Source: a virus
Length of the DNA stretch: 35,391 nt
Reading direction: 5' to 3' (one strand)
IMG/VR virus record: IMGVR_UViG_3300031963_000485
Coordinates: 1-35,391 of that record
The notes under the pieces were generated by a model. The model saw only the letters and a program-made list of their open reading frames with translations, was not told the DNA's origin and searched no databases. Of this stretch, positions 3,761 through 35,391 are shown piece by piece. The position numbers were made by a program, and so were the translations under genes. Within the stretch, counting starts at the first letter, position 1. Every line of letters starts with the position of its first letter.

Positions 3761-3822
3761 CAGCACATAGGCAATAGTTGCTATAAACTCAAACGCATTA
3801 GTTATTTTATACACCCAACCGT
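3761..3822 (-). repeat. attC-like spacer (site A)
   Basis: The plus-strand word ATACACCCAACCGT (3809-3822) matches ATACACCCAATCGT in site D (2065-2078) at 13 of 14 positions, and CAGCACATA (3761-3769) matches site B. The intervening sequence has an imperfect palindrome around ATAGGCAATAGTTGCTAT. The outer AAC/GTT boxes are degenerate. The shared words between otherwise unrelated spacers are the main evidence for a site family. Confidence 0.35.
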
Positions 3823-3827
3823 CCTTT

Positions 3828-3998
3828 TTAAGACAGCACCCATTTTAGATTTTCTATATCAGATTCATACATTGAAATTTGACGCTTGATTTTATCAGAC
3901 ATGAAAACGCTAATAGGTAGGGTAAGTTCCTTTTTTAGCCCAACAATTGTTTGTTCAAGCTTGTCAATTTGTTCTTGTATTTCGTTGCTGGTTTTCAT
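3828..3998 (-). CDS. Small coiled-coil-like protein, 56 aa
   Basis: ORF from ATG 3998 to TAA 3828. The product opens MKTSNEIQEQIDKLEQTIVG and continues with a helical KIKRQISMYESDIENLKWVL segment, a heptad-like pattern suggesting a helical hairpin or coiled coil. Function unknown. A perfect Bacteroidota -7 element (TATATTTG) lies 20 nt upstream, so it may be the first gene transcribed in the 1648-3998 island. It is followed by attC-like site A. Confidence 0.55.
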   Translation of the reverse strand: MKTSNEIQEQIDKLEQTIVGLKKELTLPISVFMSDKIKRQISMYESDIENLKWVLS

Positions 3999-4017
3999 CT
4001 TATTTTTAATTTGTTCA

Positions 4018-4025
4018 CAAATATA
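4018..4025 (-). promoter_or_regulatory. Bacteroidota -7 element upstream of the cassette island
   Basis: Minus-strand TATATTTG exactly fits TAnnTTTG. No TTTG is found at the usual 19-21 nt upstream distance, so strength is uncertain. The position is right for transcribing the whole 1648-3998 array. The rest of the 175-nt gap to 4173 is A/T homopolymer-rich and on the plus strand holds a weaker TAACTTTAG (4104-4112) that could serve the 95-aa gene. Confidence 0.4.
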
Positions 4026-4173
4026 ATAAAAAAAATGAAAATAGTGAAAAAAAAATCAAACTTTTTAAAACCTTTTTTATCTTTTATGCATAAAAAGAAT
4101 AGGTAACTTTAGGGAGGGTAAAATTTCTTTAAGTACTTAGACCTTTTTTTCTTTTTTTTAAAAAACTTAAATT

Positions 4174-4461
4174 ATGAAAGAGCTTTCTTTAAACGGCTTA
4201 ACACCAACCCCCGATTCGTACCAACCCAATTTTAATCCTAAAGATTTACCTTGGGTGGGCTGCGAACAAGGAGTACAAATCTTTGAAGCCGCTTATGTTT
4301 TTAAAAGACTATCCCCCATGTTGAGTCCCACGGGTAAAGAGGAGATGATTCCTGCTGAGGTGGTGGTGTGTCGACAATGTGGTAAAGTACCTTCCTTTAT
4401 TACGGATAAGATTGCGGATTTTCCCCAAGAGCTAAAATCTACTTGTGGTAGTGGAAAGTAA
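4174..4461 (+). CDS. Hypothetical protein with CxxC, 95 aa
   Basis: The product begins MKELSLNGLTPTPDSYQPNF and carries VVVCRQCGKVPSFITDKI near residue 75 with a further Cys close to the C-terminus (KSTCGSGK). The CxxC plus a lone distal Cys could be a partial zinc ribbon, but four ligands are not clearly present. Function unknown. Start ATG 4174 follows an AAAAAACTTAAATT leader. It overlaps the SET-domain gene downstream, indicating co-translation. This is one of only four plus-strand genes in the window. Confidence 0.7.
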   Translation: MKELSLNGLTPTPDSYQPNFNPKDLPWVGCEQGVQIFEAAYVFKRLSPMLSPTGKEEMIPAEVVVCRQCGKVPSFITDKIADFPQELKSTCGSGK

Positions 4462-4879
4462 ACCTTTTATTGACCCCCGATTAGAACTTCAGTGGATTTC
4501 GGAAATTCAAGGTTGGGGGGTTTTTACAACTGAGGATTTACCCCCTAACCTTATTATTGAAAGGTCACCCTTGATTCTTTTTCCCGAAAAGATTGTGGAT
4601 ATGACTTATTGGATGTTACAAGCTGAGGGTATCCGAAGCGAATCCTTTATGTTAGACCGTTACATGATTCGTTGGGGGGATTCTTCGGCAATCCCTTTGG
4701 GGTGGTGTGGCTTATACAACCACTCGGATACCAATAACGTTACTTTCCAAGCCCATTATGAGGCTACATTAATGGAAATACGCACCCTTCGACCAATTGC
4801 TCGGGGTGCGCAGTGTTTAGTTAGCTATGGCTCGGAATGGTTTCAAGCCAAGGGTTATATTACTAAGGTAGACTTTTGA
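4445..4879 (+). CDS. SET-domain protein lysine methyltransferase
   Basis: A minimal SET domain of about 144 residues. GWGVFTTEDLPPN (residues 23-35) is the first SET motif, which helps bind S-adenosylmethionine. LYNHSDTNN (90-98) carries the NHS core that contacts cofactor and substrate. GAQCLVSYGSEWF (121-133) matches the GEEL-x-x-x-Y element with Tyr128. There are no pre-SET or post-SET cysteine clusters, as is usual for viral and bacterial forms. It should transfer methyl groups to lysine on a protein target, host or phage, that cannot be named. The start is a GTG at 4445 or 4451, inside the preceding gene. Its 3' end overlaps the convergent phoH gene by 17 nt. Confidence 0.85.
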   Translation: MVVESKPFIDPRLELQWISEIQGWGVFTTEDLPPNLIIERSPLILFPEKIVDMTYWMLQAEGIRSESFMLDRYMIRWGDSSAIPLGWCGLYNHSDTNNVTFQAHYEATLMEIRTLRPIARGAQCLVSYGSEWFQAKGYITKVDF

Positions 4880-5582
4880 TGTGATTTAGAATTTTTCGAA
4901 CTATCGGATTACGGACGCTATCATCTTCGGTGAATGTCACTACTCCAATCTCGGGGAAGTCTTGGAAGGTGTTTATCAACCAACCCAAACCACTATCGGT
5001 TTTTTTCTTGAGGTCGATTTGGTCACCATCCCCCATCAAAATAAGTTTGGAGCGGTCGCCGATACGGGTAAGTATCGTGATTAGGTGCTCTTTTTTTAAG
5101 TTTTGTACCTCATCTACAATAATAAAACTATCATCAATCGAGCGACCTCGGATGAAAGCTAACGGGACTACTTCAATTAAGTCGGCTTTTTCTAATTCTA
5201 TGGTGAGGGGTTTGCCGATGATTTTGTAAAAGTTATCCATAAAAGAGAGCATAACTGGTTCCATCTTCTCTTTAACCGTTCCTTTCAAGAAGCCTATTTC
5301 TTCCCCATCTAAGACGGTAACGCTTTTGGCGACAATTATTTTTTGGTAAGAGCCCTTGGCTAACATAGTTAGTGCCTCGGCACAAGCTACGTAGGTTTTG
5401 CCCGTACCTGCGGGTCCAGCACACACGGTGATTTCTTTTGCCCGAATAGAATCTATCAATTCTTTTTGGGTTTCGGTTTTACATTTCAGTTTCACGGAAA
5501 TCTTGTTCCGAAGTTGTTGGGAGGGAAGGAGTATATCCATGTCAAAATCCTCCATTGGGTTTTCTTTTTTTCTGCGAGCCAT
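4863..5582 (-). CDS. phoH: PhoH-like ATPase
   Basis: A 239-residue PhoH-family P-loop protein. Walker A is CAGPAGTGKTYVA (residues 54-66), Walker B is FIIVDEVQNL (153-162), and a GDGDQID sensor segment follows (184-190). The N-terminal 30 residues are a basic, charged extension (MARRKKENPMEDFD). PhoH proteins are ATPases related to RNA helicases and are very common in marine phages; RNA remodelling or a link to phosphate starvation has been proposed, but the phage role is not settled. It is the last gene of the leftward tail operon, 41 nt after the 635-aa structural gene, preceded by an A-tract leader (TTTAAAAAAACTCG). Confidence 0.93.
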   Translation of the reverse strand: MARRKKENPMEDFDMDILLPSQQLRNKISVKLKCKTETQKELIDSIRAKEITVCAGPAGTGKTYVACAEALTMLAKGSYQKIIVAKSVTVLDGEEIGFLKGTVKEKMEPVMLSFMDNFYKIIGKPLTIELEKADLIEVVPLAFIRGRSIDDSFIIVDEVQNLKKEHLITILTRIGDRSKLILMGDGDQIDLKKKTDSGLGWLINTFQDFPEIGVVTFTEDDSVRNPIVRKILNHIKSLP

Positions 5583-25789: not shown

Positions 25790-27340
25790 TTAGTTGGTGA
25801 ACGAAGGCTCTTCGTTCGGAGGACCACCAGGAACAGGCCACTCTCTTCGAGTTAATTTGAATGATTGAGTCATCCCTGGCTCGGGTGTTTTTTTATTTGG
25901 GCTGTTGGAAAAGTCTGTTGATTTTGGGGTCATGCTATAGGTGAATTTCATCCCGTCAACCATGTAATACCCACTGTAAAACTGGTCCATAGCGGCTACG
26001 GTTTCCGACTTGGGTTTTTGTTGGTCATCGGGGGTGGCATCCAAACTTCTTTTAGCATTATCGGATTGGGTGTGTAATACCACAGGTAATCGTTCCCCCC
26101 TATAAATATTTGGATTCCAACGCTCTATATCCACCTCAATAAATAATTTTTCCAATTCGGAATTATTTCGGGCATTCCAAATCTCCGAATATAAGTATTT
26201 ATCGTGGACATCTCGATATTGAATCCCTCTCCAAAAATAACGATTTTGAGTTTCCCACCATTTTTCTTTGGATGTCCCATCTGCCGCCTTAATGGTGGAG
26301 CGACCCTTCAAGAGGATTTTTTTCTCCTCCGCACCTGGGGTCGTAATCGGGTCAACGAAAATTTCCCAAGGCTGCCCCGAAGCTTGGTCAAAAAATTGGA
26401 CATAACTTTTATATCCCCAATCCTTAACCACGTCTAACGAATTGTTTTCGACTCGGTACTGTTTAATATACATATTCGTCCCCTTGAAGTTATCCATATC
26501 GGATAAAAGTTTGGCTGATTGGGCTTGGTTTCTCTCCTCTTGATTCGAGTCACTCAAAAAATTCTTGAACGCCGAGGTATCCACAATGGCGGCATCAATC
26601 GAACCATCACTATCAATTTGGTTATTCACATTAATGAAGTTCAAATGATAATAAACATCGATAAAACAAGAAAAGAAACTCGACTCATCTTTCCAAGCGT
26701 GCTTCACTATTTTTTGAATGTATTTTTGGTAGGTGTCATTCGGATTAATCCAAATTTGTTCGTCATCGGTAAAATTTTCATTGGTAGCAAACCCAAGATT
26801 TAAGTCTTGGCATATCGTCTGCAAGACATCGAAACTAGTACCCGTATAGGCTTTTTTATTTTCATCTAACATCCGAGGGATAAACAAATCCCCATAAATT
26901 TCCAATGAACCCCCCATACCCTCTCTAGTCCCTTTTCCACCATTGACCGAAGTGACGATATAGTCATTTCGGATGGGTTTGAACACATCATTCTTGGCTC
27001 GAATAAAGATGGAAACGATATCCCCATCCTTGGGAATCCCGCTCGATTTAAAGGCGGCACTATTAGTCAACACCACCTTTAAATAAAGTTTAGGTAAAAA
27101 ACCCGTGGCATCTATTTGCACCTTATTCATTTCTTGTTGATTAAAGGTGTATGAATTGATAGTGATTTGTGGATAATCTGTACCCACCTCTAAATGGTAC
27201 TGCCGCCCCGTTTTTTTATCTTGGAGATTTTCGGGTAATTTTTCACTTGTGCCCGTGTAGGCATCTTCGAATATCATATCATCCAACTCAATAGTGGGCG
27301 ATATGATAGAGCGGATAATACTTTTTTCCTCTTGTGGCAT
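25790..27340 (-). CDS. Baseplate hub protein, gp27 / late-control-D-like
   Basis: A 516-residue hub protein. The N-terminal half opens with ITINSYTFNQQEMNKVQIDA, then PKLYLKVVLTNSAAFK, GDIVSIFIRAKND and DYIVTSVNGGKG, the beta-barrel pattern of gp27/gpD-type hub proteins. The helical insertion FDVLQTICQDLNLGFATN followed by NPNDTYQKYIQKIVKHAW is the typical linker between the two barrels. The C-terminal part is rich in aromatic strands (YFWRGIQYRDVHDKYLYSEI) and ends in a Pro-rich tail. Hub trimers join the wedges, spike and tube. Genes for spike and tube-initiator-like protein lie directly downstream. ATG shares one base with the stop of the LysM/gp53-like gene. Confidence 0.8.
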   Translation of the reverse strand: MPQEEKSIIRSIISPTIELDDMIFEDAYTGTSEKLPENLQDKKTGRQYHLEVGTDYPQITINSYTFNQQEMNKVQIDATGFLPKLYLKVVLTNSAAFKSSGIPKDGDIVSIFIRAKNDVFKPIRNDYIVTSVNGGKGTREGMGGSLEIYGDLFIPRMLDENKKAYTGTSFDVLQTICQDLNLGFATNENFTDDEQIWINPNDTYQKYIQKIVKHAWKDESSFFSCFIDVYYHLNFINVNNQIDSDGSIDAAIVDTSAFKNFLSDSNQEERNQAQSAKLLSDMDNFKGTNMYIKQYRVENNSLDVVKDWGYKSYVQFFDQASGQPWEIFVDPITTPGAEEKKILLKGRSTIKAADGTSKEKWWETQNRYFWRGIQYRDVHDKYLYSEIWNARNNSELEKLFIEVDIERWNPNIYRGERLPVVLHTQSDNAKRSLDATPDDQQKPKSETVAAMDQFYSGYYMVDGMKFTYSMTPKSTDFSNSPNKKTPEPGMTQSFKLTRREWPVPGGPPNEEPSFTN

Positions 27341-34189: not shown

Positions 34190-35391
34190 TTAAAAAAGAT
34201 TATGTAAGTTTGAAAATTCCCCATTGATGAAGTTGATGTGTTGGGCTCGACCATCGGTGTGGATAATAACGTGAGATTGTAACCAACTACTCGCCCCTTT
34301 ATTATACCCCACTCGGAGTTTGGTGGATGTGCCCACTGAGAGTGCCCCGTCTTTCCTCCCTGGGCTATGGTAATGACCCACCACAATTTTTGTGTTCAAT
34401 TGTCGAAATTGCATCAGCGACCCTCGACTGCCATTCGACCCCATATCCCCATGTTGCCCTAATTCCCATTCTTTCACCTTATATGAGGAACTGCGGTGGA
34501 GGGTAATATAGTTGGGGTATTTTTCATTAATAATGGCGGGGATAATACCCTTGACGTTATAGGGGTCTGTTTCGTACTGCCCCAACAATAAATCACTAAA
34601 GCGCATATAAAGCTTGGAATTTTTAAAGGTGGGTTGTTTTTTCCAATCTTCATTTTTCAACCAACGGTCTAAAAAATCATCGTGGTTGCTGCGCACAATA
34701 ACAACATTTTCGAAGTCTTGAAATTTACCCAATCCATCGAGCATTCCTTGGATTTCTTTGGATAAATCATTCAAGCCTAAAATCTCTTTACCATACTGCA
34801 CAAAGGGGTCTTTCAATTCGTGATGGCTAATAGAACTCCCATCAAAAACATCATGCAGCACCACATGGCTCGGTCGCAAATCTTGGAGTAAATCAAGGGT
34901 GGATTGGAGTACCTCCTCATCGTGGTGTCCGTAGTGCAAGTCACCCAAAACAATAGCCTCTATTTGTTTAATTCGGCGTACTGAGCCATCAATGACTCGG
35001 AAATATAAATCACTGAATGAGCCGCTTTCATCATCGGCGGTAACTTGACGAACAAAAAAGGTATCCTCATCTTTAATTTCCACTATCACAAAACCAAAAG
35101 TGTGGTGGAAATCCCCCTTTTTGCCCGATTTGGAGTCGGTGTAATTTTTCATGGTCACCGAACCCGTAGTAAGCATCATTTTAGGTTTATTGTGTTCCAA
35201 AACGGGAATCATTTCCATGTGTACTTTAGGACTACCAAAAATACAAGAGTTGATTCCGCTGAGGGCTTGGAGACCCGTCATTGGGTTTACTGCCGTGGGT
35301 TGGATTTTAATATCCGAGAGGATAGACACATATTTATGAATATCGTGGCGGTTGGCATCCAAATAAGGCACTACTAAGCCGTCCCAAGTTT
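34190..35391 (-). CDS. T5 A1-like metallophosphoesterase (5' part cut by window edge)
   Basis: The reading frame is open to the right edge (…TWDGLVVPYLDANRHD), so the true start lies outside. The conserved region has VNPMTGLQALSGINS, YTDSKSGKKGDFHHT and FGFVIVEIKDED, similar (from memory) to the phage T5 pre-early A1 protein. It is followed by a calcineurin-like phosphoesterase core: VLGDLHYGHHD (GD-x-H), HDVFDG, VRSNHDD (N-H-D), GQHGD and VVGHYHSPG (G-H-x-H). In T5, A1 takes part in host DNA degradation and in the second step of DNA transfer. Here it could act on host DNA or process replication intermediates. It ends 57 nt before the 34126 promoter. Confidence 0.85.
   Translation of the reverse strand, partial: TWDGLVVPYLDANRHDIHKYVSILSDIKIQPTAVNPMTGLQALSGINSCIFGSPKVHMEMIPVLEHNKPKMMLTTGSVTMKNYTDSKSGKKGDFHHTFGFVIVEIKDEDTFFVRQVTADDESGSFSDLYFRVIDGSVRRIKQIEAIVLGDLHYGHHDEEVLQSTLDLLQDLRPSHVVLHDVFDGSSISHHELKDPFVQYGKEILGLNDLSKEIQGMLDGLGKFQDFENVVIVRSNHDDFLDRWLKNEDWKKQPTFKNSKLYMRFSDLLLGQYETDPYNVKGIIPAIINEKYPNYITLHRSSSYKVKEWELGQHGDMGSNGSRGSLMQFRQLNTKIVVGHYHSPGRKDGALSVGTSTKLRVGYNKGASSWLQSHVIIHTDGRAQHINFINGEFSNLHNLF

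Follow-up and report, generated by a model that had tools for sequence, protein, structure and literature searches.

What a SET-domain protein does for a phage, and whether its place beside the gene for the PhoH ATPase bears on that role, is the question raised by this locus. SET enzymes have mostly been studied as histone modifiers and, to our knowledge, their roles in bacteria and phages are largely open. The window analyzed here, meaning the whole stretch of DNA, is a linear virus record from IMG/VR, 35,391 bases long and perhaps a fragment, with baseplate and head–tail genes; a frame at 34190–35371 on the minus strand very strongly matches phrog_1745, a DNA transfer protein (E 1.5e-125). 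The features on which the argument turns are these:

4174–4461, plus strand: zinc-ribbon-like small protein (ZnR), 95 residues, first of a two-gene unit (conserved cysteines, predicted model)
4445–4879, plus strand: single-domain SET protein, 144 residues, GTG start (PF00856 above cut-off, AlphaFold model, matches to Set7 and vSET)
4511–4525, plus strand: GWGVF, SET SAM-binding motif, residues 23–27 (G23, G25 and F27 invariant in alignment A4)
4718–4726, plus strand: NHS, SET SAM-binding motif, residues 92–94 (N92 and H93 invariant in A4)
4823–4831, plus strand: SYG with the presumed catalytic Tyr128 (gapless alignment to vSET Y105; Y128 invariant in A4)
4863–5582, minus strand: PhoH ATPase, convergent with SET, with the basic N-terminal tail MARRKK (PF02562)

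An earlier note on this DNA had read a complete SET domain with the motifs GWGVF, NHS and GAQCLVSYG at 4445–4879, and the frame, the profile match and the fold matches bear this reading out. PF00856 covers residues 23–129 from end to end of the profile (positions 1–105 of 105; 34.8 bits against a cut-off of 22.4, E 2.3e-8). No further Pfam match appears at E ≤ 1, and the 144-residue protein has no pre-SET or post-SET modules. GAQCLVSYG corresponds to residues 121–129, its last base being nucleotide 4831. We take GxG and NH(S) to be the SAM-binding motifs and the motif-IV tyrosine to be likewise required in a SET domain; all three are present (residues 23–25, 92–94 and 128). The protein matches no PHROGs family at E ≤ 1, and its single NCBIfam match lies well under that family's cut-off. 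Against PDB chains, phmmer retrieved Set7 (1.9e-6), the PBCV-1 protein vSET (2.8e-6) and a Plasmodium SET protein (5.5e-5). Residues 69–140 align in that search to vSET 46–117 with zero gaps, pairing Y128 with Y105, Y73 with Y50 and N92-H93 with N69-H70, which we take to be active-site positions of the SET domain in both proteins.

The AlphaFold2 model, built with 28 aligned relatives as input, has a pLDDT of 91.4 and a pTM of 0.82. Its top PDB match by VIA-align is Schizosaccharomyces pombe Set7 (Z 15.0, rmsd 2.7, 114 residues), with vSET (Z 13.6, rmsd 2.0, 104 residues) and the Plasmodium protein (Z 13.3, rmsd 2.3, 104 residues) also matching, and the lower-ranked matches listed are SET enzymes as well. 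The model contains a helix at residues 48–60; near residues 48–67, the window's group is longer than most other aligned phage SETs. Judged by sequence and model, the window protein is a minimal SET domain with apparently intact SAM-site and tyrosine residues and is very likely a protein-lysine methyltransferase.

The earlier note also called SET domains uncommon in phages, which holds for GenBank and less so for metagenomic phages. The window SET matches only two GenBank phage records, both of a 735-kb uncultured phage, and five SET queries (the window protein, L002, L047, L025 and L103) together match 8 of 50,697 at E ≤ 0.01. Stenotrophomonas phages account for six of these eight, at weak E-values; they were missed by the window SET and retrieved only with L025 and, for Yut2, L103. 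Because a protein of Stenotrophomonas phage Moby is already annotated as SET domain-containing, and ORF62 of phage Ps15 is called a SET domain protein in the accessible portion of its report (PMC9025141), the mere occurrence of a SET gene in a phage has precedent. A pattern scan of IMG/VR yielded 78 loci on contigs not individually confirmed as phage.

Broken catalytic residues in relatives, which the earlier note had named as grounds for doubt, are the exception. Among 80 SET frames (the 78 IMG/VR loci, the window and the 735-kb phage, LR756501), NH is kept in 73, counting L021 and L023, which read NHA; it is absent from six (L038, L039, L062 and L083–L085) and cut off in L089. The GxG pattern matches in 69 of the 80 and differs in nine (eight HRWG and, in L056, GKWG), with L079 and L080 cut off. 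The 28 phage SETs of A4 share invariant G23, G25, F27, Y73, G86, N92, H93, N98 and Y128. A catalytically dead SET fold, retained as a binding or assembly protein, would fit the six relatives without NH and the nine that differ at GxG, but the window SET has every motif, Y128 and W132 are invariant in the nine aligned SETs (A7) from loci sharing the window's gene arrangement (the cassette described below), and NH is present in all 15 further SETs examined from this and a second, operon-like arrangement; one cassette SET, L321, misses the GxG pattern. We consider a dead fold very improbable. Silent changes also appear to outnumber replacement changes in the SET gene: dN/dS ranges from 0.04 to 0.36 in the 13 of 16 pairs for which it was computable, values that are indicative because dS is saturated in three pairs, lies at 1–2 in several others, including window pairs, and is near or above saturation in the window's clade.

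Several of the more distant loci have features of their own. The SET-like proteins without NH in L062 (4353–6538) and L038 (2683–4939) lie ~5 kb from a ZnR gene and among frames of one family, a member of which in L062 matches 2OG-Fe(II) oxygenases. The SET gene of L057 (3–7828) is flanked by frames corresponding to the front and back parts of one large family, phrog_358, as though it had inserted within, or next to, a gene that is split. At L025 (4962–8927), one of a group of records reaching 321 kb, an SNF2-type helicase and a 515-residue frame that has both domains of Fe/Mn superoxide dismutase come after SET.

In the window, ZnR and SET lie on the plus strand and PhoH on the minus strand, with 17-nt overlaps at both joints. 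That SET adjoins PhoH, as the earlier note had it, is thus plain from the overlapping 3′ ends; of its proposed co-translation of SET with the 95-residue protein, the frame overlap is observed and co-translation itself is a reading of that overlap. A scan of 3800–5100 gave five promoter sites against 3.3 expected and found no terminator in that interval. The window PhoH scores 210.2 bits against a PF02562 cut-off of 27 and has relatives in 3,692 of the 50,697 GenBank phage records. PhoH proteins are described as RNA helicases in the accessible part of a review (PMC7824862).

This gene order recurs. Among ZnR-selected IMG/VR loci (80 kept of 531), 12 have SET beside ZnR and all 12 also have PhoH; the remaining 68 have neither gene in the flank (≤3 kb, less at contig ends). 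Among PhoH-selected loci (80 kept of at least 381), 18 have the order PhoH, SET, ZnR with SET converging on PhoH, two have SET only and 60 lack both, with a contig end close by in five of the 60; none of these 80 has ZnR without SET. Some contigs turn up in both scans, and near-copies occur among the loci; Fisher values, which take no account of relatedness or near-copies, were set aside. Identity to the window SET is 36–63% among cassette SETs, and together these form one clade with support of 100/100 in two trees and 100/99 in a third. The conserved ZnR–SET / PhoH cassette is a new finding of this work. Its details vary: at L289, a 248-residue frame separates SET from ZnR, and at L013, genes for a DnaQ-like exonuclease and an Fpg/Nei-like glycosylase adjoin the cassette, families that recur in L014–L016 and, farther off, in the window. 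In L173 (3209–4065; on one contig with L259), and likewise in L174, ZnR and PhoH are separated by two SET genes in tandem; the first groups near the window SET and the second with L015, L016 and L176, with moderate support, as if an old duplication had been sorted differently.

SET beside PhoH comes or goes at least six times on the best PhoH tree (60 rows), with four contrasts on supported branches. ZnR tracks SET in the same direction in three of the four and shows no difference in the other, which is not significant (P = 0.25). The tree used 60 of the 80 rows, leaving out identical rows and six near contig ends (L261, L276, L304, L311, L291 and L287), five of which belong to the 60 loci with neither SET nor ZnR. 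PhoH stands without SET in 43 of the 60 distinct rows (flank up to ~3.5 kb), so it works without SET.

A second arrangement places SET directly behind PhoH on the same strand. It occurs in L308 and L316, with no ZnR nearby or elsewhere in the record. Their sister phages L322 and L320 have PhoH genes 83% identical to those of L308 and L316, respectively, and are 80% identical over ~3.1 kb downstream; what they lack is the SET gene, a stretch of ~370 bases. SET thus appears to have been cleanly gained or lost behind the PhoH stop codon, a comparison that rests on PhoH and its downstream side because no alignment is obtained upstream of PhoH. The L308 and L316 SETs are 24–26% identical to the window SET and group with L070, not with the cassette (81/62). 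The AU test does not reject placing the cassette and operon SETs together in one clade (P = 0.366), so independence of the two arrangements is not assured.

Elsewhere, SET and PhoH are mostly apart. PhoH scores above cut-off in 16 of 50 SET-bearing records (50 of 79 SET loci examined), four of them cassette contigs. Of the other 12, LR756501 has SET ~0.5 kb from a convergent PhoH and is the only one within 1 kb; the distance is 3.8 kb in L072, ~12 kb in L071 and at least 33 kb in the other nine, seven of which are near-copies. Conversely, SET was found in 14 of 39 PhoH-chosen records (39 of 80 PhoH loci searched). In three of these (behind L307, L323 and L327), it lies 18–34 kb from PhoH, and two cassette records (behind L257 and L289) also contain a further SET at a distance.

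SET genes also occur in cellular genomes. A genome-contig scan kept 80 of 91 matches (79 loci) at 23–37% identity over the matched segment, many in Bacteroidota and others in Gammaproteobacteria, Planctomycetota and elsewhere; in a set of 148 genomes sampled from Bacteroidota, the phylum of Neolewinella aurantiaca (G058), 76 have PF00856. Five gammaproteobacterial or myxobacterial SETs (L103, L115, L121, L128 and L137) end, as judged by eye from partial sequence, in a hydrophobic, membrane-anchor-like tail. A two-origin reading of the phage SETs, suggested by FastTree, was dropped since a single phage clade is not rejected (AU P = 0.284; support of 86/8 in another sample). The SET trees left out the diverged L038, L062, L083 and L084, which have no NH, the truncated L079, L080 and L089, and any identical rows; subsets picked by hand (71, 64 and 59 rows) went into the later trees.

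The earlier note suggested the 95-residue protein as a partner or substrate of SET. ZnR has one CxxC (C66-x-x-C69), and C30, S51, P52, G54, C66 and C69 are invariant in 29 aligned relatives. Its AlphaFold2 model (pLDDT 83.2) matches no PDB fold at E ≤ 0.001, and in PHROGs, the ZnR proteins of the window, L013, L015, L011, L003 and L012 give weak matches or none. This putative zinc-ribbon family is widespread in phages. In Microcystis phage Mel-JY01, a relative sits between two clamp-loader genes, and in other SET-bearing records, ZnR is distant from SET, for example by ~243 kb in a 317-kb record. No lysine restricted to cassette ZnRs was seen by eye. Because SET is absent from the flank of 68 of 80 ZnR loci, we set aside ZnR as a dedicated substrate or partner.

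PhoH itself offers few lysines that track SET. A comparison of 18 SET-bearing with 43 SET-less PhoHs revealed no SET-linked lysine in the core, and the only lysine column with a frequency gap above 0.35 lies in the tail (0.44 versus 0.09). K86-S87, invariant in eight cassette PhoHs and absent from six others, was considered as a mark of SET and rejected: KS is scored at 52 of the 60 SET-less PhoH loci, so it marks a wider PhoH lineage. At residues 86–91, a large phage lineage reads KSVT or alike, and the six other PhoHs have TP or RP. Short basic N-terminal tails (MARTKNKAK, MAARKTKQATK and MARRKK are examples) occur in SET-bearing and SET-less phages alike, and the first 15 residues of PhoH are identical in L308, which has SET, and L322, which does not. 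The tail is a plausible methyl acceptor, and we put it no higher.

A host target was a further possibility raised by the earlier note, which named ribosomal or nucleoid proteins and a counter-defense or takeover step. The host is likely a member of Bacteroidota, since a 516-residue window protein (25790–27340) matches 25 phage records (15 Prevotella, six uncultured, three Tenacibaculum and one Flavobacterium) and the accessible part of the huge-phage paper predicts Bacteroidetes hosts for Lak phages and for phages larger than 634 kb (PMC7162821). A takeover or counter-defense enzyme that methylates a nucleoid protein such as the H1-like Hc1 would agree with a review, available in part, in which cpnSET of Chlamydia pneumoniae methylates Hc1; in the same text, NUE of Chlamydia trachomatis did not (PMC3980110). 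Hc1 is encoded in 86 of the 148 genomes of the Neolewinella phylum, which would make it available in hosts of the kind suggested by the 516-residue protein, but co-occurrence has the opposite sign: Hc1 is present in 25 of 76 SET-bearing genomes against 61 of 72 SET-less ones (both, 25; SET only, 51; Hc1 only, 61; neither, 11), counts compiled from two genome lists and uncorrected for phylogeny. HU was found in none of 29 SET phage records, many of which are fragments. SET and ZnR match no PADLOC model at E ≤ 0.01, though this says little on counter-defense because the library covers defense systems. We do not favor Hc1 as the target, and we regard a takeover or counter-defense enzyme of this kind as quite unlikely.

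The choice lies mainly between a target connected to PhoH and one that is not. Our tentative preference, which we hold at somewhat short of an even chance, is an active protein-lysine methyltransferase of large tailed phages that acts with PhoH. SET and PhoH would then serve one RNA-linked process, in which SET may methylate a component of a PhoH complex, the basic N-terminal tail of PhoH being the most accessible candidate; alternatively, the target could be an RNA- or ribosome-bound protein on which PhoH works. The most specific version, in which SET methylates the basic, lysine-bearing, histone-tail-like tail of PhoH, with ZnR as an adaptor, and so switches PhoH binding to RNA or the ribosome during infection, is unlikely as it stands. 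It is only a little less probable than our preferred reading that the enzyme is an active lysine methyltransferase with a virion or host target unrelated to PhoH, the adjacency being inherited in one lineage or produced by a hot spot; the 3′ side of PhoH could be such an insertion hot spot. Such a target would suit phage SETs that adjoin other genes (an SNF2 helicase, a virion structural gene in L041 and small hypothetical genes in Moby), the mostly large distances from PhoH outside the cassette and the PhoH core without a SET-linked lysine. It sits less well with the recurrence of PhoH–SET adjacency in the opposite orientation and with a different SET lineage, with the SET near PhoH in LR756501 and with the joint occurrence of ZnR, SET and PhoH in the cassette. 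We regard the PhoH–SET link as moderately supported.

PhoH is very common in phages, with little known about what it does during infection, and the SET cassette narrows the suspects to PhoH, ZnR and their RNA or ribosome partners. The fixed placement of SET beside PhoH points to a possible use of protein methylation by phages in handling RNA. If the link to PhoH is real, protein-lysine methylation would be a layer of phage control and PhoH would gain a regulator; methylation of the PhoH tail, if true, would amount to a counterpart, internal to the phage, of the marking of histone tails. In the literature available to us in part on phage SET proteins, lysine methylation, jumbo or huge phages and PhoH, we found no treatment of phage SET function, and the phage SET and PhoH literature, searched as two separate topics, yielded no report of a PhoH–SET link. 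The accessible portions of the huge-phage paper (PMC7162821) and of a jumbo-phage overview each gave no matches for SET domain.

Among known systems, the top structural match of the window SET is S. pombe Set7 (5h6z; Z 15.0 over 114 residues), a eukaryotic histone methyltransferase by its PDB title, with 24% identity. PBCV-1 vSET (A612L) shares with the window protein a single SET domain without pre-SET or post-SET modules, and its SYG tyrosine is aligned (Z 13.6). The PDB molecule name gives vSET, a chlorovirus enzyme, as a histone H3K27 methyltransferase. Unlike this algal-virus protein, the window SET belongs to a phage, adjoins PhoH and would meet no histones in a bacterial host. Many small SETs of Bacteroidota and other bacteria have the same minimal architecture, on chromosomal or MAG contigs and at 23–37% identity to the window SET over the matched segment. 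The Stenotrophomonas phages Moby and Ps15 (ORF62) are large phages that likewise have an annotated small SET protein, and the gene context in Moby differs from that in the window. The 735-kb phage LR756501 resembles the window in having a phage SET close to a convergent PhoH (~0.5 kb), but its SET belongs to another group of phage SETs and no ZnR was found in its record.
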